Shown here piece by piece: positions 32,556-62,570 of a DNA stretch of 64,000 nt. This DNA comes from Prochlorococcus marinus str. AS9601 (GTDB taxonomy: Bacteria > Cyanobacteriota > Cyanobacteriia > PCC-6307 > Cyanobiaceae): positions 992,001-1,056,000 of the forward strand of contig NC_008816.1 of assembly GCF_000015645.1 (NCBI RefSeq), in the 5' to 3' direction. A model generated the notes under the pieces. The model was given only the letters and a program-made list of their open reading frames with translations, searched no databases and had not been told where the DNA came from. A program made the translations under genes and the position numbers. How positions within the stretch are numbered: the stretch's first letter is position 1; every line of letters begins with the position of its first letter.

Positions 32556-34259
32556 TTAATTTAAATAAAATATATTTAAAGTTTTTTTCGCTCTTGTAAC
32601 AGCAGTATAAAATAACCTTCTTTCAAAATTATCTCTGCAAAAGATATTTTGATCATCTTTTTTTTCTTTTACAGCATATTTATTTCTTCTATAATTTTGG
32701 GACCACAAAATGTTTACTTTTTCAGATTCACTTCCTTGAGATTTATGAATAGTAAAAGCTATTGCTGGTACAACATTTTCTAAATTAGATGGATCAATTA
32801 ATGAGACAATTTCTTCGTTATTATCATTAAATTTTCTAAAAAGATATTTTCTTTTATTTTTTAAACCTATAAGTACTCCTATATCCCCATTTGACAATCC
32901 TAGTTCATTATTATTTTTTGTACACATGATGGGAATACCCTCTTTAAGAGTTTTAAGGTCATAGGGTTTTTTTTGACCAAAAACAATTTCATTCAAATAT
33001 TCAACACTCCATATTCCCGAATTTTTTTCGCATAAAATCAAGTGACTTTGTAAATCCAGAAATATCTTATCTACTAAATCTTTTTCATTAAGCAATAAAT
33101 TATCTATACTCTCATCAAATATATATTTTTTTTTACTTAAATTTGAAGTTGAAATATTTAACTGCTTTAGATGACTTGTAATCGAAAATAATAGATCTTT
33201 TGGGATATCTTTTTCACTACTCTTTGAAATAGTAATTTCTTTTGAATTATTATCTTTTTCTAATTCTTTTATCTTTTGATTAAGTAAAGAAAAATCATTA
33301 TTAAATATTAAACTACTAATTAATGCTATATCTCCAATATTTCTATAAGTTTTTTCTAAATTTACTACACAAGATTTAATTGAACTATTATCGGAATATT
33401 CAAACAAATAATTCCATATAGAACAGTTATTTACTGGAGACAATTGATTTTTATCTCCAACTAAAATAATTTTACAGTCTTTTGCTAGCAAATCTAAAAC
33501 TGATTCAATCAAATCGATATTAACCATTGACATTTCATCAATTATGAAAATATCAAGCTCTTTTAGTTTAAATTTCAACTTAAGAGATTTATTTTGAGAA
33601 TTTAAAATCCATCTATGTAAAGTTTGAAATTCTATTTGGTCTAGAAATTTATTGAAGGAAATATTTTTTTTATCATTGAGAGCTTCTTTTAAACGTGCTG
33701 TAGCTTTACCAGTTGGAGCAGACAAACCAATATTTAAAAAGTTATCAATCTGAAGGAGTTCTAATATTAACTTAATTATTAAAGTGGTTTTACCCGTACC
33801 TGGTCCTCCTTGAAGGAAAACTATGTTTGAATATTTAAATATATTTTTAATTTCATCAATTTTATTATCATCTTTAAAAATTATTGAGTTCATTAAATTA
33901 ACGGTATCTATTTTTTTTAGGAATGAATTAATAACTCTTTCAATCTTTTTTGACCATTTTGATAAGGATAATTTTCTATTTACTAATACGAATGGAGAAT
34001 GAAGGGAACCAATCAAACCTATAGTTTTTAGAACATGTATATGTTTATTGGGCCAGCCATCTTCTAATAATTCAAAGATTATTAAACTATTATCAACATC
34101 AATAATAGTTTCACCATTTTTTTCAAAATCTAATAAGATTCTTATTACATCCTTTACGAAATTTCCATATTTTTTTTCACTAAATTTGAAAATACCTAAG
34201 ATTAAATTAAATATATGATCGTATTGGAACTTTTCAATATCTGTAGAGGTTTTAGTCAT
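32556..34259 (-). CDS. recD: Exodeoxyribonuclease V subunit alpha (RecD helicase)
   Basis: The 5'-3' helicase of RecBCD. Superfamily 1 motifs are clear: Walker A QGGPGTGKTT (about 150-159), Walker B IIDEMSMV, LVGDKNQLSPV, and the C-terminal FTIHKSQGSE and FYTAVTRAK. 567 residues is close to the usual RecD size. Starts 1 bp after the recB stop, so it is translationally linked to recB. The sequence is very A+T rich with many Lys and Asn. Confidence 0.93.
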   Translation of the reverse strand: MTKTSTDIEKFQYDHIFNLILGIFKFSEKKYGNFVKDVIRILLDFEKNGETIIDVDNSLIIFELLEDGWPNKHIHVLKTIGLIGSLHSPFVLVNRKLSLSKWSKKIERVINSFLKKIDTVNLMNSIIFKDDNKIDEIKNIFKYSNIVFLQGGPGTGKTTLIIKLILELLQIDNFLNIGLSAPTGKATARLKEALNDKKNISFNKFLDQIEFQTLHRWILNSQNKSLKLKFKLKELDIFIIDEMSMVNIDLIESVLDLLAKDCKIILVGDKNQLSPVNNCSIWNYLFEYSDNSSIKSCVVNLEKTYRNIGDIALISSLIFNNDFSLLNQKIKELEKDNNSKEITISKSSEKDIPKDLLFSITSHLKQLNISTSNLSKKKYIFDESIDNLLLNEKDLVDKIFLDLQSHLILCEKNSGIWSVEYLNEIVFGQKKPYDLKTLKEGIPIMCTKNNNELGLSNGDIGVLIGLKNKRKYLFRKFNDNNEEIVSLIDPSNLENVVPAIAFTIHKSQGSESEKVNILWSQNYRRNKYAVKEKKDDQNIFCRDNFERRLFYTAVTRAKKTLNIFYLN

Positions 34260-34260
34260 T

Positions 34261-37200
34261 CTAAAAAAGGTTATCTAAATAATTAATTCTTTTTAAAGGT
34301 GCCTTGCTAATAAAAATACCTGGAGATATATCTTCAGACTTAGATTTTTCAAATAATTCAAAATCTGGCAATCCCTTTAAAAATAAATAAATATATCCTC
34401 CTAGATGTTTTTGTGGTTGATAATTTTTAAGTCGCCACTTTAATAATCTATGCAATGCTAATAAATAAAGATGAGATTGCAATGGATAATGATGTTTAAT
34501 CATTTCATTTCTCATGTTTTCATAGTTATAGTTTCTTGGTAAACAATCACTATTATCACTATCAGAAATCAAATTACTTTTCCAATCAATTACCCACCAT
34601 TTACTATCTTCTAATTTATTTCCTACAGGGAAAATACAATCAATACATCCTGAATGAAAGCCTTTATTCATAATTTGAAGATCATTTATTTTATTTGCAT
34701 ATTCTTCACCAAATTCATAATCCTGATCTAAAAAAAAGCAATTTGATATATCATTAGAGTTAATATTTCTACCTTCATAAGATAGGGTTAAATCATATTT
34801 GAGTTCTTTAATTAAGTATTCATTTGGAATATCAACTAGTTTCTTATTTTGTAATTCTCTTCCTAAAGATATATTTATGATTCTTAAAATCGCATCTTTT
34901 ACTTTAAAAGCCAAAGAAGTATCGATTTGATGAAAGTTCAATTCCTCAATAATTAAATCAATTAATTCTTGATTATTATCGTTTCTAAATTCAAATCTTT
35001 CTATTATTTTGTGCAGGCAAGTCCCAGCAATAGTTCCTTTTGGAAATTCACTTAAGGGATTTGGATGAGAGAAATAATTAGGATAGTTCTTTGAATTCTT
35101 AAAATTAGAATCTTTGATAATTGATATATTATCTTCATAATCCTTATATTGATTAATGACTGCTTCAATATTTTTATCTTTACGTATCCAAGAAGAATAA
35201 CTTGAATAAGAAATAAATTGATCAGAATTAAATACATTAGATATTTTTTTATTAACGTTATCGATTTTCCAAAGATTATTATTCAATCGGTTGGTTTGGA
35301 ACTTAGAAAAAATTTCTTTTATTTTCTCGTTTTCTATCCTAACTTTAAAAGTAGACTTATAAATATTTATATTTTCCAAATTATTAAGTAAATCATTATT
35401 TAAAATATTATTTGTATCCTCTAAATCATTAAAAACAATAAGTTTATATTTGCTCCTCGTAAGTGCTACATAAATTAACCTCTCACTCTCTTTGAATAGA
35501 TCTTCTTCTTCTATTAATTTAAATTTTTCAACCTTCGCGTAATTATTAGAAATATTAACGTATATATTTCTATCAATATTTGATTTCCAAAGAGGTCCTT
35601 TAATTTTATTTAACTTATTTGAAATAATTGAGAGATATGGACATAGGACTATTTCAAATTCGAGGCCCTTACTACTATGAATGGTAGAAAGATTTATTCC
35701 ATTTTGAAGATTATAATCTTTCGTCAAAAAATCTTCTCCAGTTGAAATTCTTAAAATATGATCTAACTGATTTTTATACCAGTTGAAGACTATATTGAGA
35801 TCTAAATCATTATTTATTAATTCTATTTCAACAATTTCTGAAAGTTGAAATAAATTTGAATTTAAATCTGAATCTTGAATAATCGAGGATGATTTGTAAT
35901 TTATAACTAGTTCATTAACAATATTTAAAAAACCTTTTTCTCTTAGTTCTTGGGACCAAGTAATGCATTTATTCATTAAAATTTCTAAATTATTACTAAT
36001 TCCATGATCAAGTAAATCTTCTAATTTTATTTCTATAAACTTTGAAGTAGCAAGCAAAGTTATATTTTTTAAAGACCTCGGATTTAATAAACATTCAATG
36101 AATAAAAATAGTAGAGAACTTGCTTCTGTATCAAAAATATTTTGTTTATTTTGAATTTTGCATGGCAGGTTAAACTGATTTAATTTTTTTTTAAAATCTA
36201 AGCATTGAGAATTATTTAATGTAAGAATCGCAATTTTATTAATATCAATTTCTTTATTATTTAAAATAAAGTTAACTATATAATGAGTTACAAGATCCTC
36301 TATATCAGTCTCTTTTTTTGAAAATTCTACAATTTCAAATACATCCTTAAATTTAAATTCAGGATTAATATTTTCATTGATTCTTGAGGTTAATTTACTA
36401 TATTTTAGTTTTGATTGTTTAAGTCCATTCTTATAAAGTTTATTAAGAACATCGATTAAGTTTTTTGAGGATCTATAGTTATCTGTAAGACTAAAAACTT
36501 CGATTGCATTAGATCTTGCATCTAAGTAAGTTTCAATATCTCCACCTCTAAATTTGTAAATCGCTTGTTTTGGATCACCTACGCAAAGTAAAAAATGATT
36601 TTTTGTATTAAAGAACTTTTTTATTAAATTCCACTGAGTAATATCTGTATCTTGGAACTCATCAACTAAGACACATTTAAATCTTTTTTGAATTTTAGAA
36701 AGAGTATTACTATTACTAATTTCCGAATCTAGAAATGTATTTTCTACAGTCTTTATAAGATCATTGAAGTTGAAAATAGAAAAACTTTTCTTTAATTCAA
36801 ATAATTTTATATAAGCTAATTGAGTAAATATTCTTACAAATTCAGTAAAAAAGCCTTCTTTTATTTTATAAATTTTATCTTGTAATAAATTAAATTTAGT
36901 AAAATCTAATTTAATATTATGTTTATTAATTTCTTTAGATATATTTTCAATGTAAAAATATTTAGATAAAAGATCATCCTTAGAAATATCATATATGAAA
37001 TCAATAACATTTTTAGAATTAAGCCTTTTGTTAATCTCTTCAATCCAACAATTTATTTGATTAAACTTATCATTTCTTGGTTTTGCTGCATATATTTGAC
37101 TTTTTCCACCACTTTCCTTAATTAATTTTCCCAACTCTATGAGTTGTAAAAATAATTCCTTACCTTTCTTATTCCATTCAAAACAAAACTCGTTCCAATT

Positions 37201-37887
37201 TAAATAAAAAAATTCATTAAAATAATTATTTAAATCAATAATCTTATATTTATTATTTATTTGAAATTTATAGATATTTTCTTGATCTATATTTTTTAAA
37301 ATTTCTACAAAAAATGACTTATTGATCCTACTTCCAAATCTAGAACTTATTTTTTTTTTGTATACTGCTGAAATAAGCTCATGATTAAGATTAAGAAAAT
37401 CATCAATCCATAAATTATCTATTACATCTTTATACAAATTATCAATATTATTCTCAATATATGGATCTTGTGTTAAACCTATTTCAATACTATATTCATC
37501 AATAATATTATTACAAAAAGCATGGAACGTAGTTACTTTTAACTTATAGAATTGATTTATAAAATTGTCAATTTCGGAAATTATTTTTTCCTTAGATTTA
37601 TCTTTATCCTTAAAATTTAGATACCAATCCTTAAGAGTATTATCTATCTTACATTCTTTATAACTTTGCAAATATAATTTTAAATTAAGAAATCTCGAGA
37701 GAATTTTGTCTCTTAATTCAGAACAAGTATTTTTTGTAAAGCTTAGCAAGAGTATTTCATCTGGTTTAACTTTTTTCTCCAAAACATTTCTTAAAACTAT
37801 GTGTGCCAAAGTAAAACTCTTACCAGTGCCTGCACTTGCTTCAACTAATTTAAATTTTTTATTTAATTTAATTTGATTAATATCCAT
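34261..37887 (-). CDS. recB: Exodeoxyribonuclease V subunit beta (RecB helicase-nuclease)
   Basis: The 3'-5' helicase and nuclease subunit of RecBCD, which resects double-strand breaks and loads RecA. Walker A EASAGTGKSFT is at residues 16-26, VDEFQDTD marks motif II, GDPKQAIYKFRGGD motif III, and STIHSSKGLEFEIV and IYVALTRS the last helicase motifs. The C-terminal nuclease has CIDCIFP and WWVIDWKSN, where the Asp-Trp-Lys is the catalytic signature. 1208 residues. The whole catalytic set is present. Confidence 0.94.
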   Translation of the reverse strand: MDINQIKLNKKFKLVEASAGTGKSFTLAHIVLRNVLEKKVKPDEILLLSFTKNTCSELRDKILSRFLNLKLYLQSYKECKIDNTLKDWYLNFKDKDKSKEKIISEIDNFINQFYKLKVTTFHAFCNNIIDEYSIEIGLTQDPYIENNIDNLYKDVIDNLWIDDFLNLNHELISAVYKKKISSRFGSRINKSFFVEILKNIDQENIYKFQINNKYKIIDLNNYFNEFFYLNWNEFCFEWNKKGKELFLQLIELGKLIKESGGKSQIYAAKPRNDKFNQINCWIEEINKRLNSKNVIDFIYDISKDDLLSKYFYIENISKEINKHNIKLDFTKFNLLQDKIYKIKEGFFTEFVRIFTQLAYIKLFELKKSFSIFNFNDLIKTVENTFLDSEISNSNTLSKIQKRFKCVLVDEFQDTDITQWNLIKKFFNTKNHFLLCVGDPKQAIYKFRGGDIETYLDARSNAIEVFSLTDNYRSSKNLIDVLNKLYKNGLKQSKLKYSKLTSRINENINPEFKFKDVFEIVEFSKKETDIEDLVTHYIVNFILNNKEIDINKIAILTLNNSQCLDFKKKLNQFNLPCKIQNKQNIFDTEASSLLFLFIECLLNPRSLKNITLLATSKFIEIKLEDLLDHGISNNLEILMNKCITWSQELREKGFLNIVNELVINYKSSSIIQDSDLNSNLFQLSEIVEIELINNDLDLNIVFNWYKNQLDHILRISTGEDFLTKDYNLQNGINLSTIHSSKGLEFEIVLCPYLSIISNKLNKIKGPLWKSNIDRNIYVNISNNYAKVEKFKLIEEEDLFKESERLIYVALTRSKYKLIVFNDLEDTNNILNNDLLNNLENINIYKSTFKVRIENEKIKEIFSKFQTNRLNNNLWKIDNVNKKISNVFNSDQFISYSSYSSWIRKDKNIEAVINQYKDYEDNISIIKDSNFKNSKNYPNYFSHPNPLSEFPKGTIAGTCLHKIIERFEFRNDNNQELIDLIIEELNFHQIDTSLAFKVKDAILRIINISLGRELQNKKLVDIPNEYLIKELKYDLTLSYEGRNINSNDISNCFFLDQDYEFGEEYANKINDLQIMNKGFHSGCIDCIFPVGNKLEDSKWWVIDWKSNLISDSDNSDCLPRNYNYENMRNEMIKHHYPLQSHLYLLALHRLLKWRLKNYQPQKHLGGYIYLFLKGLPDFELFEKSKSEDISPGIFISKAPLKRINYLDNLF

Positions 37888-37899
37888 TTTTTTATTAAA

Positions 37900-38373
37900 T
37901 TAAACTTTGACCTCATTTTTATAAAGTAAGTAATTCTTAAATTTTTTCATTAAATATTTCTCTTCCAAGTCAATCTTAAATTTAATTATTAAACATAAAC
38001 TTATTGTCAAAAATAAATAATAAATAGATAATTTTATTATAAAAACTCCAATAGAAATAAATATTAAAGAATAGTACATAGGATGACGTGTAAAACGATA
38101 AATACCTGTAGTAACTAGATTGCTATTGTTTATAGGTCTTGGGAAAGGGGATAAATTGCTTCCTAAGTCTTTAATTGAAACTAACATTATTATGAAAGCG
38201 ATTATGATAATTAAAATACCTAGGAAATAAAAAAAAGGACTTTCTTGAATTATTTGTTTTTGAAGAAAAAATTCCCATTGAAAAAAATGAAGACTAATAA
38301 TAAAGAACTGTAAAAAAACAAGTAATCGTTCATAAACAGCTTTAAAAAAATTTTTTAACTGAAATTTAGACAT
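37900..38373 (-). CDS. Isoprenylcysteine/phospholipid methyltransferase-like membrane protein
   Basis: A 157-residue protein with about four membrane helices and the ICMT/PEMT motif GIYRFTRHPMYYSLIFIS (His and Pro of the SAM-binding site), preceded by LVTTGIYR. Bacterial members methylate small or lipid substrates, and none can be named here. It lies between recC (3 bp away) and recB (12 bp away), so it is inside the recombination operon, but no functional link is known to me. Confidence 0.8.
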   Translation of the reverse strand: MSKFQLKNFFKAVYERLLVFLQFFIISLHFFQWEFFLQKQIIQESPFFYFLGILIIIIAFIIMLVSIKDLGSNLSPFPRPINNSNLVTTGIYRFTRHPMYYSLIFISIGVFIIKLSIYYLFLTISLCLIIKFKIDLEEKYLMKKFKNYLLYKNEVKV

Positions 38374-38376
38374 TTA

Positions 38377-41300
38377 TTATTTCTTAAATGCTTTAATTAG
38401 AGGACCATATATTCTGTATGATAATTGATCAAAATTATTATTTCCAAGAAAGAATTCTGGTTCTTTTTCATTACCAAAACACATTTTCATTTCGATATTA
38501 TCTCTTTCTCCTTTAGAAAAATTTTTATTACCAATCCATTTATCTCTGAAAGCTTTTTTTTCATTTTTTGATTTTATTTTTGCTTCTACATATTTATAGG
38601 CACTTTCTGGAGGAAGAGGTAAACATTTTTCAGAATAATTTTTAAAAATATTTATGTACTCCTCCAAAATAAGATTTGATTCAGTTAATCCCGGTGATTG
38701 AATAATTTGCGATTTATAATTATTTTCTGTTCTAAAAATTACTTTAGTCCTTTTTATATTCCTCTTTAAAGAAGAAATAAAGAGTAATTTTATCCAAGCC
38801 TCAATCAAACGGCTTAAACTTAACTTCGCATTAATTAATTCAATTACGGTGTCATCAGCGATTAAATATTCTTCTTTATTCGCATTTAACTTAACATAGA
38901 TTTTATTAATCTTATTATGCTGACTAAGACTTGCAGATAGACTGATTAATAAGTCTTTGATTTCTTTTTCTTTTGTAAAAATACTATTTTTGGGCATAAT
39001 AATGCCATTTTCAGCCAATTGATCATTAATATTTAATTCATTTAAAAAATCAACAATATTATGATTACCAATCTCTACTTGCTGGATTATTTTGGTAATT
39101 AGTTGTGACTTTTGCAGATTGCTTACATACTCCTCATCTGGATGATGAATAAATATTTCCTTGGGATAAATATTGTTTTTATTAAGCCAATATTTTTGTG
39201 GAGTCTTGAACCAATAAATCAATTCTGATAATTTGTAATTTTTAATATCAGATTTTTTTTCATTCCAATCTATATCTTCCATTAAAGAATAATTACTTTT
39301 AACAATCTTAGATTTATCAAGATCAATTATTTCAATTTTTTTTAAATCAGAATCTTTAATTATTAGTCCTCTTTGGCTTTGGTTTAGAAAACTATCAAAA
39401 AAAGAAATTAACTCTTTTATAGGAAAAGAAACATCTAATTTTTTATTGTCTTTATCATTTTTTACCCAATTAACTATAAATTTATCTCTGCAGGAAATTA
39501 ACAACTCCAGAAATGCATATTTCTCTCTTTCAAAAACAGATGGATCTCCCAAATGATATTTGTTTTTTAATAAATTAATGTTTTCACTCTTTGGTAATTT
39601 TGGATAATTAACACTATTCATGTCTATTAGGAAGATAACCTTATGTGGAATATGCCTTGAATTCTCAATATCACTTACAAGGATCTTGTTGACTCGTGAT
39701 TTACTTTGATATTTAGCTTTATTTATGCAAGAAATTAATATTTCTCTAAAAACTTTTAACAAGATAAGATCATCAGGTATTAAAGGTATTGCGTGATTAT
39801 CAAGAATTCTATTTATTTCACTTATTTCTAAATTGAAATTTGCATTAGAATCAGCGATACTTTTTAATATAAACTTTATCTTTTCAACCCAATTCGAGTA
39901 AGAAAAAGATCCCCTTATCAAATTAATATATTTTTTTAAATTAATTAATATTTTAACCCATTTATTCAAATCCAAACTTATATTTTTATAGCTAAATGGT
40001 TTTAAATTAAAAATACTTAAATTTACTTCTTTGTCATAAATTAAGCCTAAAGTAATTCTATTTATACACCAATCTAGAGTATTTTTCTCTTCACCTAATC
40101 TTTCTTTATCATCTAATCCCCAATGAAACCCCGCTTGGGTAAGTAAGAAAATAATTTCATCCTTCTCAGTAATTGTAAAATTAAAAATATTCTGAGTTAC
40201 TTTTTTCGAAAGAATATAATCTATTTTTTCAAGTGTAATTTTTTCACTTGCTATTTGAGTGATGTCAATTAGAAATTCATAAATTCCTGAAGAGTCATTA
40301 TTATCCTCATCGATAAAAAAATAAGGTATCTTTTCACCATTAATTAACTCATTATTAAATATGTACCTTAGATAAGGTTTAATTAAATTAGTTTGTGGAG
40401 ATAAAACAGCAATATCACTATATTTAATATTCTCGCAAGAATTAATTATTTCTATAATTTTATTTCTTAAATATTCAAATTGAATATTCTGATTAAAATG
40501 CTCACAAAGTAATATTGAATCATCCCTTTCACTTAGAATAAAATCAACGCTATTATTATCAATTAGTCTTTTTTGTATTTGATTAAGAAGAGGAATATCT
40601 TTCTTATTATGAAAATTAGTTGTTGGATCGAGATAAATAAGATTATTTTTTAAATTTATACCTTCTATATAAATATTTTCATCAATTAATTTCTGAAAGT
40701 TTGCTCCAAATTTTCCAAATATTTTCTCTATATTTGTACTATTTAAATTCAATTTACTTTCATTATCATTAAATTCCAACTCACCCTCAAGACAATTTAT
40801 TCTATTCCATAAATCTTCTCCAGGAGATAATAAATACAAATTTACCTTAATAAATTTTGAAAGTTCTGAATAAAAATTAATATGTAGTTTAGATAAGTTA
40901 TTATCCGAAAAAATATAAATTTGATTTGGTACTTGAAATTGAATGTTTTTAATTTTTCTTAAATTCTTTATTACTTCAATCATGTATAAACATGATGGCT
41001 TTTCAGGTATCTTTTCCTCTAATAATTTATATAAAATAGGTTGCCAAAATTGATCTGAGTTTAAATTCTTAAATAGATTAGATGAATTAATTTCATATCT
41101 ATTCCATTGAGCAATCATTTCAGGTCTAAAAATCAGATAATCAATAAAATTATTCGTGATCTTTTTTGTCAGATTATATATGTCTCCATCAATTGTCTTT
41201 TTATTATCCAAATATTTATTAATCCAATTTCTAAGCGGAAATGATTCTTTAAAGCCATTTAATTCTTCCAAGGAATCAATAATGCCCCATTTAATTGACT

Positions 41301-56521: not shown

Positions 56522-56645
56522 TAGCCTGAAAATTGCTTTTTTATAAATATTTTTGAAATTAAGGCTTCTATAGATTTCTGTTATGAACTAAGATCTTGTG
56601 AGCGGGGCGGGGCGCAGCTTGATAGCTCGAGTGCTTTAGAGCATC
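56522..56645 (+). repeat. Decayed copy of the tRNA-Pro upstream flank and 5' half
   Basis: From TAGCCTGAAAATTGC through TTATGAACTAAGATCTTGTGAG this stretch aligns with 57885-57967, the flank upstream of the intact tRNA-Pro, and from 56603 it continues as a degraded tRNA 5' half (CGGGGCGGGGCGCAGCTTGA and on to GTGCTTTAGAGCA). Substitutions in the D-arm and anticodon stem, and the loss of the 3' half, make it a non-functional remnant. The offset to the intact copy is 1365 bp. Confidence 0.8.
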
Positions 56646-56744: not shown

Positions 56745-56835
56745 CTCTAAAATAATTTGCGAATCCTAATAAAATCAGTATTTTTTTTCAAATCATTTGC
56801 AATATAAAAACAGACAAATATGGAGAATTTTTTTT

Positions 56836-57828
56836 TTGAACAAACTTTCAAAAACATTATTAATAACATTTTTAGGATTATTTTCTATAAATCCAAGTTA
56901 TGCATTTGATGTTTTTTCCCTTGAGTCTGATACCACAAATAATGTGCTGAAGGTTTATGGGGTGGATTTAATAACTAAAGAAAAGACATTATTAACTGAA
57001 AAAAATTTAGGCGGATCAGATCCTTCTTCAGCGGGAAGAAACTCTTACGTAAATCCAAATTCCGGGGAGCTTGTAATAATTACCAATGAAAGTGGTCAAG
57101 AAGCTTATAACTGGAAAACAAATACTTGGAGAACAATTGATGAAAGTTTATTCCCCAATGCTCCTCATATTTTACAAGTACCCTCTGCGAGTGGTAATGG
57201 TTCATTAGAAGTTTATAGTCTTGGAGAAAAAACATTTCACGTCCAAACAACCTCATCACAAAAAAAATTATGGGGGACCAACTCAGATGGGAAAGTCGTC
57301 CCAATAAACATAACGAACGGGAGTAAATTATTAATAGATGGCAGAGATGTAGAGCAATCAATTAATAATGTGGGAGCGTTAAGTGCCGCTCTTACAGGTT
57401 TACCGACTATTCCTACCGAAACCAACCATGCTTGTGGATTAGGGACAGGAACTCATGGAGGTGATTTTGCATTTTCAGGTGGTTGTGCATCTAAAGTCAA
57501 TGAAAAACTGTCAATTAATTATGCCGCATCTATGACTATTCCTGGTCAAGATTACGCAGGTGATTTTGAAGATACTTTTTCCGCAAGAGCAGGATTTGTT
57601 TGGAAGTTAGGTAAATCATTGAAACCAACTCAAATAGGTTTGAAAGATAAGGCAATTATTGATGAAAAAATATCAATTCTTGAAAAAGATAATGAGATTT
57701 TAAAAGCTAAAAATGATGAGATAATTTCTCAAAATCAAAAACTTTTATCGAGATTAATGAAATTAGAAAATATAGCTTTAAATTTTCAATCAAAGCCAGA
57801 GATAATTTCTGCCGCCACCAAAGACTAA
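56836..57828 (+). CDS. Surface protein with a YadA-like membrane anchor and C-terminal coiled coil
   Basis: 330 residues from a TTG at 56836, chosen because GGAG lies about 10 nt before it; a TTG at 56797 would add 13 residues ahead of the signal peptide. The signal peptide is NKLSKTLLITFLGLFSINPSYA. Residues about 177-259 resemble the YadA anchor of trimeric autotransporters (NNVGALSAALTGLPTIP, then a Gly-rich GLGTGTHGGDFAFSGG and strands ending SARAGFVWKLG), with Cys at about 200 and 217. An unusual feature is the heptad-rich coiled coil after the anchor (about 275-313). An outer-membrane, surface-exposed role is inferred. It lies between tRNA-Pro remnants and the intact tRNA-Pro. Confidence 0.65.
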   Translation: MNKLSKTLLITFLGLFSINPSYAFDVFSLESDTTNNVLKVYGVDLITKEKTLLTEKNLGGSDPSSAGRNSYVNPNSGELVIITNESGQEAYNWKTNTWRTIDESLFPNAPHILQVPSASGNGSLEVYSLGEKTFHVQTTSSQKKLWGTNSDGKVVPINITNGSKLLIDGRDVEQSINNVGALSAALTGLPTIPTETNHACGLGTGTHGGDFAFSGGCASKVNEKLSINYAASMTIPGQDYAGDFEDTFSARAGFVWKLGKSLKPTQIGLKDKAIIDEKISILEKDNEILKAKNDEIISQNQKLLSRLMKLENIALNFQSKPEIISAATKD

Positions 57829-57967: not shown

Positions 57968-58041
57968 CGGGGCGTGGCGCAGCTTGGTAGCGCGGGTGCT
58001 TTGGGAGCACTAGGTCGCAGGTTCGAATCCTGTCGCCCCGA
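57968..58041 (+). tRNA. tRNA-Pro (anticodon UGG), island attachment target
   Basis: An intact 74-nt cloverleaf. The acceptor arms CGGGGCG and CGCCCCG pair fully, with discriminator A at 58041. The anticodon loop is TTTGGGA reading TGG and the T-loop is GTTCGAATC. Its 3' half (57996 onward) plus 4 flanking bases recurs perfectly at 61186-61235. The 5' half and upstream flank recur, decayed, at about 56.5-56.65 kb. Confidence 0.97.
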
Positions 58042-58045
58042 CTCT
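57996..58045 (+). repeat. tRNA-Pro 3'-half direct repeat, left copy (attL-like)
   Basis: 50 bp from GTGCTTTGGGAGCACTAGG to CCCCGACTCT, identical to 61186-61235. It spans the anticodon loop to just past the tRNA end, the region most tRNA-targeting tyrosine recombinases use. Weaker similarity continues about 15 bp past the end (CCAAGTCATA in both). Confidence 0.95.
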
Positions 58046-58060
58046 AATAATCCAAGTCAT

Positions 58061-58087
58061 AGATAGGTTCCCCAGCCTGTCTTTTTT
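58061..58087 (+). terminator. Terminator downstream of tRNA-Pro
   Basis: AGATAGG pairs with CCTGTCT (one G-T pair) around an 8-nt loop and is followed by six T. It begins 20 bp after the tRNA end. The equivalent place after the right-hand tRNA fragment also holds a terminator of different sequence. Confidence 0.75.
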
Positions 58088-58098
58088 ATTGGGTAAAA

Positions 58099-58135
58099 TT
58101 TGTCCACGTCTTAAGTGGACAGATAGTGGACAAAT
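58099..58135. repeat. GTGGAC paired repeat, left end of cassette A (arm-type site candidate)
   Basis: GTGGACAGATA is followed directly by GTGGACAAAT (58115-58135), an 11-bp period. An inverted copy TTTGTCCAC lies just before, at 58099-58107. The pair starts exactly 70 bp after the end of the tRNA 3'-half repeat. It matches 61077-61097 in 20 of 21 positions. Confidence 0.8.
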
Positions 58136-58253
58136 TACCATCCAAATATATTCATAAAAAATCTTATTTTCTAAAATTTATGATTCTAAATTTTAAAAAT
58201 ACTAATAATATGTATAAATAAGAACCTGAATTGTTATTCTTAAAGATATTTTA

Positions 58254-59825
58254 TTGACAAAAAAATTCTTCACATTTATAAAGCGCGGTCAATCTAAGAA
58301 TTTAATTTATATAGTAATAATTTCTATTTTTTCTGGTTATAGTTTTCAAAAGACGATAGCTGCGAACAATGAAACTAACATCACCGTTGGTCTAACATGC
58401 GGAATAATAGGTTGGAATAATGGAAAATGGGAGGAGCTTTCTTTAAATAGTGGACACTTAGATGCTCCTTGGTATACAGGTAAAAAAGGAGGGAATAGTT
58501 GGACAGAAAATGAAAATAATAAAGCTTCAAGGATATGGTCTGATAAATATTTTGAACAAAATTCCATCAATTGGGTAAGATTTGCATATTTTTCAGATGA
58601 AGTTACCCAACCCACAAGAACGATGGTTCGTCATCATAGATGGAAAAATTCTACTTCTAGTCAATTTACTTGGACTGATGATAATAGAGCTCAAAATTGG
58701 GCACAGTATATAGGCAACTGCTCAACTGAGAATGGTATACCTGATGTTGGCATTCCAAATGAAGATATTGAGTTGTTGGCAAAAAATATAGTCTTAGAAG
58801 TATCAAATACTAGAGAAAACAACTATAAAATGGCACTAAACTTTTTACCGAAAAGTTTATTTGCGACAGGAGGAAAAGCTATTCAGGCTTATCAAAACGA
58901 CCTCGTAACTGCAGTTAAAAAGAAATCAAAAAATAATAAAAAAGAAAAGGTTTCAATATGGACGTCAATATTTAGTGGAAATAACTCACCTTTTGATTTC
59001 AATACTAATAATTTTGGAGAATATGGGAATTGGAAAAGTGATCATAATGGTTTTCTTATTGGTCTAACTAATGAAGTTGGTTCAAATAAATTTATTTCTA
59101 TATTTGGAAATAATGGTTCTGTTAAAGTCGATTTCCTCGATCAAGGAGGAGGAACATATAAACCTAAAGGGAATGGTTTTGGAATTGTAATTGGTAAAGA
59201 ATCAGAAAAAAATTATTCGCATTTTCTTTTTAGTAATACTAGCTTTAGTGGAAAACACAATCGCGGACTTATTCCGGTTGGTGACTTTGCTGGTGGATCT
59301 GCGAGCGGGAATAAAAGCATAACTTCTTATGTTTTTGATCTAACAATTGGCAAGAGAAAAGAGGTAAATGGATTTCTCATTAATCCTGAAATAAGTGGCA
59401 CCTGGAATCAAAATATAGATCATGAATGGAAAGAGTCAGGAGGTGATCCATTTAATCTTCAGTACAACGAATACAAAGATAATTTTCTTCTCACAGAAAT
59501 CTCGATTGCCATATCAAAAAAGGCTAAAGTTTATGAGAAATTCATATTAACTCCAACAATTAAAGCTGGATGGATTGTTGATTGGGATTTAAATAATAAG
59601 CCAGCAACAATTACTAATCTCGAAAATAGCCAAACAATAACTATTAAACCTGATGAACAAAACCAGCAAGGAATATTAATAGAGAGTTCCATAAAACTAG
59701 GTCCAACGAAAGATAGTGAGTCTAAGCTTGAGGCTGAAGTTTCATATGGAATAAAACTTTGGGAATCAAACCAAAAGTTTTCTGATTGGAGAGCCGCAAT
59801 AGGAGTGTCTTATTTTTTCGATTAA
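58254..59825 (+). CDS. Outer-membrane autotransporter-like barrel protein
   Basis: 523 residues from a TTG start. A long basic head leads to a signal-like hydrophobic segment at about 17-33 (LIYIVIISIFSGYSF) with cleavage near TIAA. An N-terminal region rich in Trp, Asn and Ser (about 40-170) includes a GNCSTENG bit. From about 225 the protein alternates polar and hydrophobic strands with many Gly and Asn, ending WRAAIGVSYFFD. This looks like the beta domain of an autotransporter, but by eye only; there is no obvious passenger fold. Only plus-strand gene in cassette A, facing away from tRNA-Pro and convergent with the sigma operon. Confidence 0.6.
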   Translation: MTKKFFTFIKRGQSKNLIYIVIISIFSGYSFQKTIAANNETNITVGLTCGIIGWNNGKWEELSLNSGHLDAPWYTGKKGGNSWTENENNKASRIWSDKYFEQNSINWVRFAYFSDEVTQPTRTMVRHHRWKNSTSSQFTWTDDNRAQNWAQYIGNCSTENGIPDVGIPNEDIELLAKNIVLEVSNTRENNYKMALNFLPKSLFATGGKAIQAYQNDLVTAVKKKSKNNKKEKVSIWTSIFSGNNSPFDFNTNNFGEYGNWKSDHNGFLIGLTNEVGSNKFISIFGNNGSVKVDFLDQGGGTYKPKGNGFGIVIGKESEKNYSHFLFSNTSFSGKHNRGLIPVGDFAGGSASGNKSITSYVFDLTIGKRKEVNGFLINPEISGTWNQNIDHEWKESGGDPFNLQYNEYKDNFLLTEISIAISKKAKVYEKFILTPTIKAGWIVDWDLNNKPATITNLENSQTITIKPDEQNQQGILIESSIKLGPTKDSESKLEAEVSYGIKLWESNQKFSDWRAAIGVSYFFD

Positions 59826-59894
59826 TAAAAGATTATCATTTTTTAAAAAATATTATTTTTTTTGATCTAGTTAAGGACCTCATGAAATTTAAAA

Positions 59895-60155
59895 CTATAA
59901 GTCCTCAATAATCCCATAAGTCACAAAATCATTAATTTCATTAACATCCACAATATTCCTAGATATCAATAATTGAGGAATAAAAATGCAAGAAATAATC
60001 AATGAGGTAAAAGTTAATCCATAAACGTTTGGCTTGAGAATTAATTCCTTAAGCCTTTTATGTAAAGAATTAGATTTAATGTTTTTTACTTCTTGTTTAT
60101 AAGAAAGTGCATTCTCAATCATTTGATTAAGACGTTCCTTTTGTAATTTAGACAT
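59895..60155 (-). CDS. Short single-pass membrane protein, candidate anti-sigma factor
   Basis: 86 residues: a charged, helical N-terminal part (about 1-43), one membrane helix (about 44-64, VYGLTFTSLIISCIFIPQLL) and a 22-residue end. It overlaps the ECF sigma gene stop by 8 bp, so translation is coupled. That position, order and topology are what anti-sigma factors show. It lacks the HxxxCxxC zinc motif of the ZAS family, so the anti-sigma role is inferred from context alone. Confidence 0.6.
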   Translation of the reverse strand: MSKLQKERLNQMIENALSYKQEVKNIKSNSLHKRLKELILKPNVYGLTFTSLIISCIFIPQLLISRNIVDVNEINDFVTYGIIEDL

Positions 60156-60702
60156 CCAAAAATTCCTCCAAAATATTTTTTGGCAAAATAGTTTTTAACT
60201 TTTTGCGAGCGCGAATAATGAGGCTTTCAGTTGCCTTGTCACTTTTTTTTAAGATCCTAGACACTTCTCTCTGTTTATAGCCAGAAAAGTAATGTAGCAA
60301 AATGGCTTCTCCCTGATCTTGAGGAAGTTTTTGAATATTTTTTAAAAGCATTTTTCTCAATTCACTAGTTGTATAGTTGTTATTTATTATTTCTAAGTTG
60401 GAATAATTATCTTTAAATTCTTCAGCACTTTTATATCTTCTAAAAAAGTCAATGCAAGTTGAAAAAACGATTTTATGAATATACCCTTCTACACTTCCTT
60501 TATTTACCCAATTAGGAGCTGATTGCCATACTTTAATTAAAGAAATTTGTACTACATCTTCTGCATCCTCAGAATGCGATGAACCTAAAATCTTAATTGC
60601 TGTGGCATGCATTTTGTATCCTAAAGAATTTGCAATGAATCGGAAAGCTGCCTTATCACCCTTTGCGACTTTGAGCATATAAGCACTAAGGTCTGTAGAC
60701 AT
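60148..60702 (-). CDS. ECF-type RNA polymerase sigma factor
   Basis: 184 residues with only sigma regions 2 and 4. Region 2 has the core-binding SEDAEDVVQISLIKVW (about 44-59) and the -10 recognition part GYIHKIVFSTCIDFFRR. Region 4 (about 123-172) is LPQDQGEAILLHYFSGY then REVSRILKKSDKATESLIIRARKKLK, the helix-turn-helix for -35 reading (quoted in part). No N-terminal extension. Starts 3 bp after the EF-hand gene and overlaps the membrane protein gene. Alternative sigma factors of this class are few in high-light Prochlorococcus, and this one lies in a mobile-looking cassette. Confidence 0.9.
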   Translation of the reverse strand: MSTDLSAYMLKVAKGDKAAFRFIANSLGYKMHATAIKILGSSHSEDAEDVVQISLIKVWQSAPNWVNKGSVEGYIHKIVFSTCIDFFRRYKSAEEFKDNYSNLEIINNNYTTSELRKMLLKNIQKLPQDQGEAILLHYFSGYKQREVSRILKKSDKATESLIIRARKKLKTILPKNILEEFLDV

Positions 60703-60705
60703 TCT

Positions 60706-61008
60706 TTAATTCCCTTCATTTCTAAATTTATATATCCTTTTTTTCATTTCTTGCTTAACTGCTCGTAGTTCTTTTTTTGATAACTTGCCATCAGCATTCT
60801 TATCAAAATTCAAAAATAGTTTATCTATACGATCACGATGAGCTTCTATCATCTCGCCTTTAGAAAGAAGTCCATCTCCATTCTTATCGATCTTTTGAAA
60901 TCGCTTGCGCATCTTAATAAAACTATTTTTCTCAAAAGTTGGATTGGAATAAGAAGGTAATGCGATAAAAAAGGCTAATGCCAAAATTAAAAATGAAAAA
61001 TTTTTCAT
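60706..61008 (-). CDS. Exported EF-hand calcium-binding protein
   Basis: 100 residues from the ATG at 61008, which begins a proper signal peptide (MKNFSFLILALAFFIALPSY). A longer frame to 61095 adds residues with no support. Two canonical 12-residue EF-hand loops follow: D41 to E52 (DKNGDGLLSKGE) and D69 to E80 (DKNADGKLSKKE), with all oxygen ligands in place. The ends are rich in Lys and Arg. First gene of the operon leading into the ECF sigma factor (3-bp gap), so a periplasmic calcium sensor or target of the sigma system is a fair inference. Confidence 0.9.
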   Translation of the reverse strand: MKNFSFLILALAFFIALPSYSNPTFEKNSFIKMRKRFQKIDKNGDGLLSKGEMIEAHRDRIDKLFLNFDKNADGKLSKKELRAVKQEMKKRIYKFRNEGN

Positions 61009-61076
61009 AAAGGTTTTAAATGTCTCTAAATTATTAACGCAGAAATCAATAAAAATCCTTCGCATAAATATATAAA

Positions 61077-61097
61077 GTGGACAAATAGTGGACAAAT
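61077..61097. repeat. GTGGAC paired repeat, right end of cassette A
   Basis: GTGGACAAATA followed by GTGGACAAAT, same orientation and 11-bp period as at the left end. It lies 109 bp before the right tRNA 3'-half repeat, and also about 70 bp upstream of the EF-hand start codon, so it could instead be a promoter element for that operon. Confidence 0.8.
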
Positions 61098-61185
61098 ATT
61101 GTTTGAATTGTCAGGACAAACTACGCAGAACTAAGCAAAAAAATAGATATAGCTTGAAACGCTAGTGCTTGCAATGGGGTGGGAA

Positions 61186-61235
61186 GTGCTTTGGGAGCAC
61201 TAGGTCGCAGGTTCGAATCCTGTCGCCCCGACTCT
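61186..61235 (+). repeat. tRNA-Pro 3'-half direct repeat, right copy (attR-like)
   Basis: A perfect 50-bp copy of 57996-58045. The upstream sequence (AATGGGGTGGGAA) does not form the 5' half of a tRNA, so this is a remnant and not a gene. Confidence 0.95.
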
Positions 61236-61304: not shown

Positions 61305-61324
61305 GGGGAGCTGTAGGGGGAGCT
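61305..61324. repeat. GGGGAGCT paired repeat, left end of cassette B
   Basis: GGGGAGCT occurs at 61305-61312 and 61317-61324, a 12-bp period. It starts exactly 70 bp after the end of the tRNA 3'-half repeat, the same distance as the GTGGAC pair in cassette A. Repeated at 63957-63976 with 18 of 20 positions the same. Confidence 0.75.
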
Positions 61325-62332: not shown

Positions 62333-62426
62333 TTTTTTTGCGGGATGTAAAAGCTTTTTACCTGATTCTGCGTAATTTCTCGTGTTCCATAACAAGATAT
62401 CTTGAAGAAATTAAAGATGAATATTT

Positions 62427-62570
62427 TAAATAACTCCAGGAACGATTTGTCCAGTTGTTATGTATGCTCCCACTAAAGCAATTAGACCGACGAGAGCAAA
62501 TCTGCCATTTAAATTCTCTGCTCTTATTTTTTGAGGATCAATATTTCTTGATTGATTTTTATTTTCCATT
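62427..62570 (-). CDS. hli: High-light-inducible protein (Hli), second of a tandem pair
   Basis: 47 residues from the ATG at 62570. A polar head (MENKNQSRNIDPQKIRAE) leads into the Hli motif ENLNGRFALVGLIALVGAY and the tail TTGQIVPGVI. The Glu, Asn and Arg chlorophyll ligand set is intact. The start codon directly abuts the stop of the upstream hli gene, so the two are surely cotranscribed. Confidence 0.92.

Follow-up and report, generated by a model that had tools for sequence, protein, structure and literature searches.

A putative self-regulating EF-hand/ECF sigma factor operon carried by small tRNA-bounded cassettes in Prochlorococcus

Introduction

What might an extracytoplasmic function (ECF) sigma factor do when its gene lies between those of an EF-hand protein and a small membrane protein, in a mobile-looking segment of a streamlined Prochlorococcus genome? 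This question is raised by a locus in a 64,000-nucleotide stretch of Prochlorococcus marinus str. AS9601 (bases 992001-1056000 of NC_008816.1, a genome assembled as a single contig of 1,669,886 bp), hereafter “the window”. An earlier reading of these letters, the original prediction, held that an exported EF-hand protein, the sigma factor, and a one-helix membrane protein of 86 residues form one operon, that a calcium or cation signal sensed through the EF-hand protein frees the sigma factor, and that the latter turns on its own operon and perhaps a barrel-like surface protein encoded in the same segment. We examined these proposals mainly across a sample of 200 Prochlorococcus genomes, counting the reversed (“backwards”) pattern as a control beside the genome-wide motif searches. 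All four open reading frames (ORFs) named in the original prediction were recovered (Table 1). Our assessment leans, if only slightly, towards a self-contained, self-amplifying EF-hand/ECF envelope switch on a cassette that would be mobilized in trans.

A three-gene operon kept together across Prochlorococcus

The sigma gene was present in 17 of the 200 genomes, that of the window included, and in 7 of the 66 that are at least 90% complete. When the regions of the other 16 were taken for a comparison of gene order, the EF-hand, sigma, and 86-aa genes proved adjacent and in that order in 16 of the 17 genomes, i.e., in every one where the order is visible; in the remaining one (G033), a contig end falls inside the sigma gene. 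One copy (G121, locus L112) has a broken sigma gene. The 3-bp gap between the EF-hand and sigma genes and the 8-bp overlap between the sigma and 86-aa genes, both exactly as originally described, recur in 11 of 15 and 15 of 15 intact operons, respectively. Median ratios of nonsynonymous to synonymous substitutions (dN/dS) across 15 operons were 0.21 for the EF-hand gene, 0.20 for the sigma gene, and 0.42 for the 86-aa gene, with a largest value of 0.90 for the latter (L112 was omitted here, and L113, which is cut, both here and from the promoter comparison). In pairwise distance between operons, each of the three proteins tracks the other two (r=0.92-0.93), a level reached by none of 2000 permutations. 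Judged by these comparisons, the three genes are one operon, under purifying selection and diverging together. A chance cluster was rejected on the basis of the sigma survey, the kept gene order, and the dN/dS and distance data. So was a conserved neighbouring target gene, since at most 5 of the 17 loci share any other ORF of at least 60 aa within 5 kb of the operon.

The original prediction had singled out homologues of the 86-aa protein without any sigma factor as telling against it, and no intact sigma-less copy was seen in the 200 genomes. Matches to this protein were found in 24 of them, 17 with and 7 without a sigma gene. At 52-53% identity, two of the sigma-less matches (in G034 and G107) are missing residues 1-8 and carry an in-frame TAG, and the other five are weak (E from 1.4e-4 to 9.2e-4) with stops inside. 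Two second matches, in sigma-bearing genomes, are likewise weak.

The EF-hand protein has a signal peptide (by eye) and matches the Pfam family EF-hand_5 over two stretches (E=2.1e-12), with loops DKNGDGLLSKGE at residues 41-52 and DKNADGKLSKKE at residues 69-80. Inspection of the alignment by eye indicates that calcium-ligand positions 1, 3, 5, and 12 are preserved in both loops in all 16 rows, and the glycine at position 6 of loop 1 in 15 of them. The sigma factor scores above the Pfam cut-offs for Sigma70_r2 and r4_2 and above the own cut-off of TIGR02937, which places it among ECF sigma factors; the best of the 87 NCBIfam models that match it is PRK05602 (NF004113), at 97.5 bits and thus below the cut-off of 208. 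The 86-aa protein matched no Pfam or NCBIfam family above cut-off. It has a single hydrophobic stretch (best window, residues 46-64), flanked by the two most conserved parts of its alignment, an N-terminal helix and a segment near the C-terminus. From its position, topology, co-conservation, and analogy to other systems, we presume that this protein is an anti-sigma factor, which would bind its neighbour.

A predicted promoter that leads back to the operon

All 16 loci compared have a putative ECF-type promoter, GAAGGATTTT-N10/11-[GA]CGTTA, in front of the EF-hand gene, and the sole long block common to all 16 upstream regions is GAAGG[AG]TTT...[GA]CGTTA. A strict pattern, GAAGGATT-N11..14-GCGTTA, occurred once each in 15 of the 200 genomes: 11 sites lie at the EF-hand/sigma operon, 1 at a decayed copy (G140, with an EF-hand remnant downstream, by eye, and no sigma gene found), and 3 elsewhere (G041, G165, and G194, the last inside a coding ORF), the backwards control also giving 3. 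Because the strict promoter is no commoner elsewhere than its control, we predict a regulon limited to the operon, and the system appears to control mainly itself; no wider regulon is visible with this consensus in the 200 genomes. Within the genome of the window, the strict pattern has one match, at the operon. A looser form, GAAGG-N16..17-CGTTA, was also found there only once, again at the operon, against 12 matches for the backwards control, possibly reflecting avoidance of stray promoters of this sigma factor.

Self-regulation of the ECF unit, the first half of what the sigma factor had been proposed to do, is well supported at the sequence level by this conservation, with use of the promoter by the operon's own sigma factor as the corresponding prediction. 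The second half, activation of the surface protein gene, found no support (see below).

Small cassettes at a tRNA-Pro gene

The “mobile-looking cassette” of the original prediction can now be given sharp borders, as 3143 bp flanked on one side by a tRNA-Pro gene and on the other by a perfect duplicate of the 47 bases at the 3' end of this gene. Five further copies of the tRNA-Pro 3' end follow in the same genome, near genome coordinates 1056121, 1057910, 1060192, 1062928, and 1064013, the last three degenerate. Defining cassettes as the stretches between neighbouring tRNA-Pro 3' copies yielded 52 cassettes in 16 loci. The same iterated 6-mer was found near both ends in 32 of these 52, as compared to 164 of 2652 mismatched pairs of ends (6%). 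Its spacing was 11 bp in 26 cassettes and 12 bp in 6, with no other value from 5 to 30, while mismatched pairs predict 2.8 and 0.2 cassettes, respectively. The signal persisted when each content cluster was represented by a single cassette (21 of 36 vs 38 of 1260 mismatched), and also after further removal of the GTGGACA family, on which the choice of nine loci had been based (18 of 32 vs 27 of 992). By our own grouping, the 32 matched cassettes carry 14 different repeats, or tags. The pattern GTGGACARATAGTGGACAAAT occurs in 14 of the 200 genomes and its backwards control in none. Taking Tn916 as the model, we interpret these end repeats as putative arm-type sites for tyrosine recombinases.

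A search for the integrase family PF00589, made in the 16 genomes whose cassettes were mapped, gave no match in 51 of the 52. The one cassette with a match (G079, L099 5777-13523) has ends that differ, GGGGAGCT on the left and TGCAGTCT on the right. The integrases close to L156 (G107) and L182 (G181) are not within mapped cassettes, and both PF00589 genes of the window's own genome are located elsewhere. In this genome, a tyrosine recombinase at 379736-380209 (359-aa frame) lies about 1 kb from a tRNA-Thr at 380827 and is a possible helper in trans.

The ends of the window cassette (about 95 bp on the left and 95-110 bp on the right) are common to four other loci that differ in cargo: L157 is a barrel-only cassette, L099 and L100 are operon-only, and L158 combines the barrel gene with other cargo. 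Other GTGGACA cassettes hold different ORFs (91, 125, and 338 aa). The operon itself occurs in different settings, namely between GTGGACA ends (window, L099, and L100), between the ATGTCAT ends of another cassette (L110), and beside a tRNA-Ala (L105 and L109). These comparisons support the view that the EF-hand/ECF operon travels among Prochlorococcus as cargo of small tRNA-bounded cassettes, and suggest that their mobility would be provided in trans. As to a phage source, a scan of IMG/VR with the sigma factor returned 2 distant ECF relatives (23% and 28%), and scans with the 86-aa protein and the end repeat returned none, so that this origin was rejected. PADLOC gave no defence-system match at E<=0.01, and nothing found here bears on the phage or grazer interactions suggested in the original prediction.

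Two described systems resemble this arrangement. Tycheposons of Prochlorococcus are likewise tRNA-bounded and cargo-carrying, but are described as having their own tyrosine recombinase and measuring 4-200 kb (PMC10872708), unlike the 3143-bp window cassette with no PF00589 match. The additive flexible islands fGI-2 of Methylophilaceae, which range from 330 bp to 42 kb, lie next to repeated tRNA 3'-end copies, and the passages of PMC10872708 that concern them mention no cassette-specific end repeats.

Table 1. Features of the tRNA-Pro cassette and its borders in the window (position 1 is the first base of the window)
Feature	Position	Strand	Basis
tRNA-Pro (TGG), intact	57968-58042	+	ARAGORN, BLAST of tRNA
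Left copy of border repeat (last 47 bases of tRNA-Pro)	57996-58042	+	BLAST of tRNA
Cassette body, integrase-less, with barrel module and EF-hand/sigma operon module	58043-61185	.	tRNA-Pro copies; no PF00589 match inside; cassettes with the barrel alone or the operon alone
Left end repeat GTGGACAGATA-GTGGACAAAT, period 11	58115-58135	+	Repeat search
523-aa exported protein, putative “barrel” of the original prediction, independent cargo	58254-59825	+	4/200 genomes; barrel-only cassette L157
86-aa protein with one transmembrane helix, presumed anti-sigma	59895-60155	-	Overlap with sigma gene; alignment
ECF sigma factor, 184 aa	60148-60702	-	Pfam, NCBIfam
Exported 100-aa protein, two EF-hand loops	60706-61008	-	Pfam
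Predicted ECF-type promoter, -35 GAAGGATTTT (from 61061), -10 GCGTTA (to 61035)	61033-61061	-	Kept in 16/16 loci
Right end repeat GTGGACAAATA-GTGGACAAAT, period 11	61077-61097	+	Repeat search
Exact 47-bp copy of tRNA-Pro 3' end; right border here, left border of next cassette	61186-61232	+	BLAST of tRNA

The next cassette extends from 61233 to beyond 64000, has GGGAGCT repeats with a 12-bp period at 61306 and 63958, and encloses numerous small ORFs, of which that at 62426-62569 looks high-light-inducible-like by eye. Farther along the tRNA-Pro array, a 360-aa ORF (genome coordinates 1058789-1059871, L189) reads as photosystem II D1 (psbA, by eye). On the 5' side of the tRNA gene, 56560-56637 and 56797-57828 look like an insertion: the former holds the tRNA-Pro 5' half in decayed form (56603-56637, 88.6% over 35 bases) together with its upstream flank, and the latter is an ORF for a 343-aa exported protein that matches YadA_anchor weakly (21.3 bits, below the cut-off of 22.7). 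In G034, three tRNA-Pro 5'-half copies lie about 1 kb apart (L155 460-498, 1445-1487, and 2655-2696), as if cassettes stack on this side too. Elsewhere in the window, positions 33001-41000 are low in guanine and cytosine (0.22-0.26, with surroundings at about 0.30-0.33).

Relatives of the operon

Within the family, a profile of the sigma factor (E<=1e-15) matched 4 of 300 genomes, all of them Prochlorococcus, i.e., 1 of 59 genera. A similar layout was found in a Rhodospirillaceae locus (L006), where a gene with three EF-hand loops precedes a sigma gene that scores above the PRK05602 cut-off. PRK05602-like sigma factors occur in 58 of 142 genomes sampled from the class to which L006 belongs (E<=1e-30), 32 of them above cut-off. 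In raw counts over 30 loci of this class, a gene with at least two EF-hand loops lies within 600 bp upstream in 14, a small ORF with one transmembrane helix starts near the sigma stop in 26 (one locus being cut downstream), and both flank the sigma gene in 11. Because the same three-gene order thus recurs there, the layout is known elsewhere. By sequence, the Prochlorococcus form is a divergent variant of it: its sigma factor, unlike that of L006, falls well short of the PRK05602 cut-off (97.5 vs 208 bits) and outside the alphaproteobacterial clade. In a tree of 55 sigma factors (6 of 15 from Prochlorococcus, 29 of 30 alphaproteobacterial, with L232 omitted for an internal stop, and 20 hand-picked from 80 loci), for which the bootstrap had not settled, the Prochlorococcus sequences form one clade (100/100). 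This clade is placed together with three sequences from betaproteobacteria and the clade of alphaproteobacteria (92/89), outside the latter (99/93). Among four loci listed for Polynucleobacter, the upstream gene looks Spy/CpxP-like and the downstream one encodes a protein of 106-107 aa with one transmembrane helix (by eye).

The closest studied relative is cabp-sigV of Caulobacter vibrioides, in which the gene of a periplasmic EF-hand protein likewise directly precedes that of an ECF sigma factor (PMC13171946). Expression of cabp is sigma-dependent and induced by ethylene glycol tetraacetic acid (EGTA) and acid, and a membrane link has been proposed (PMC13171946); activation of the EF-hand gene by the sigma factor is in our case predicted from the promoter. 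CaBP has three EF-hand loops in 133 aa, whereas the window protein has two in 100 aa, and relative to the system as presented in the relevant parts of PMC13171946, the window adds a conserved third gene and carriage on a tRNA cassette. Full-text literature searches on ECF sigma factors, EF-hands, anti-sigma factors, and calcium returned only this Caulobacter system, and none of the literature found joins Prochlorococcus, EF-hand, and sigma factor. A second parallel, which can serve as a mechanistic model, is CnrYXH of Cupriavidus metallidurans, described as a periplasmic metal sensor, a short membrane anti-sigma (CnrY), and an ECF sigma factor (PMC4598750). The window sigma profile matches CnrH (in 4cxf, E=1.1e-6). 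The window has a periplasmic protein gene matching EF-hand families where CnrX would stand, and the 86-aa protein resembles CnrY in topology and position but has no sequence link to it.

Proposed mechanism and alternatives

In the switch that we favour, the 86-aa protein would sit in the inner membrane, its N-terminal helix holding the sigma factor inactive and its C-terminal tail reaching into the periplasm. An envelope signal would loosen this hold, upon which the sigma factor would transcribe its own operon from the GAAGGATTTT/[GA]CGTTA promoter, producing more EF-hand protein, sigma factor, and inhibitor. The EF-hand protein would be the main predicted output and possibly also a periplasmic partner feeding back on the 86-aa tail; a role as sensor is suggested by analogy only. 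Since sea water contains about 10 mM Ca2+, the loops of this protein would probably be occupied from the outset, and the switch more likely responds to Ca2+ loss, acid, or ion competition, which are reported as inducers of cabp-sigV in Caulobacter. A tyrosine recombinase acting in trans would place the cassette at the tRNA-Pro gene.

Several observations weigh against this account. The usual glycine at position 6 of EF-hand loop 2 is present in only 5 of 16 rows and absent in 11, which may lower calcium affinity. AlphaFold models of the 86-aa protein, built from five sequences, show two long helices at a weak mean predicted local distance difference test (pLDDT) score of 63, and the protein has no detectable homology to known anti-sigma factors in Pfam, NCBIfam, or a PDB profile search (best PDB E=0.15, chance-like), nor to the six proteins compared that are encoded downstream in loci of related layout (hhalign probability, 0.3%). 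For the cassettes, 20 of the 52 lack a shared end repeat, and none in the 16 genomes was found to combine GTGGACA ends with an integrase. In Caulobacter, cabp and sigV have separate promoters, unlike the one conserved promoter before the EF-hand gene here, and deletion of cabp barely altered induction of the cabp promoter by EGTA or acid, which argues against CaBP as sole sensor (PMC13171946).

Because of this deletion result, we place more weight on the EF-hand protein as an output and less on a sensor model. Carried to its end, this leads to the most serious alternative, in which the EF-hand protein is solely an output, a periplasmic Ca2+-binding stress protein produced when needed, with the 86-aa protein or proteases doing the sensing and calcium not being the signal. 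The sole consensus promoter of the genome being the operon's own is consistent with such a role, but EF-hand and 86-aa distances correlate (r=0.916) and the EF-hand gene comes first in all 16 testable operons, both of which fit a functional partner without proving one, and CaBP overexpression raised sigV in Caulobacter (PMC13171946). We consider this alternative unlikely, if worth keeping in view.

The switch could instead be selfish cargo, serving the cassette itself, e.g., through higher recombinase or transfer activity in stressed cells, and the variety of ends and tRNA genes with which the operon is associated would suit such a role. However, the single own-genome match of the looser consensus is at the operon, away from both PF00589 genes, which are outside the cassette, and we regard this explanation as highly improbable.

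This leaves the proposal that the switch activates the surface protein gene carried on its cassette and thereby remodels the cell surface. The two share the window cassette and stand side by side in G162 (L101), but their distributions are separate: the barrel gene is present in 4 of the 200 genomes, 2 of which lack the sigma gene (G022, 100% complete, and G067, 74% complete), 15 of the 17 sigma-bearing genomes lack the barrel gene, and barrel-only and operon-only cassettes exist. A shared promoter had been expected upstream of 61008 and 58254, and was found on the operon side only; a search of the window with up to three mismatches returned the operon site and two weak sites far from 58254, a total of three that 14 of 100 shuffles also reach, and a separate fuzzy search of the region upstream of the barrel gene returned none. 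The encoded 523-aa protein matches no Pfam or NCBIfam family above cut-off, and its AlphaFold model (mean pLDDT 30.4) is uninformative as to a barrel fold. Because no such promoter precedes it and half of the genomes carrying it lack the sigma gene, the barrel gene is best read as an independent module that is not part of the predicted circuit, and its candidacy as a sigma target, the least probable of the explanations weighed here, was rejected.

Implications

The preferred reading, a self-amplifying EF-hand/ECF switch, would represent a minimal natural version of such a system, with the entire predicted circuit held within 1.2 kb, and the 86-aa protein is a candidate for the membrane link missing from the Caulobacter model. 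What is least familiar is the array of tagged cassettes, most of them without an integrase, to which the operon belongs as cargo. Tentatively, and with rather less confidence than we attach to the switch, we suggest that the tRNA-Pro site may act as an integron-like store, in which stacked cassettes of about 1-4 kb, most of them devoid of an integrase, would each be closed by a copy of the tRNA 3' half, carry at either end a repeat of 11- or 12-bp period as a tag of their own, and be recognized and shuffled according to this tag by tyrosine recombinases acting in trans, the EF-hand/ECF switch being one interchangeable cargo among others. If the end repeats are indeed recombinase arm sites, this would explain how cassettes are recognized and offer a simple way of finding their borders in sequence data. 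A streamlined cell could then acquire a regulatory circuit via a tRNA-bounded cassette without an integrase, and a self-regulating envelope circuit would be traded as a 1.2-kb module among streamlined Prochlorococcus genomes.

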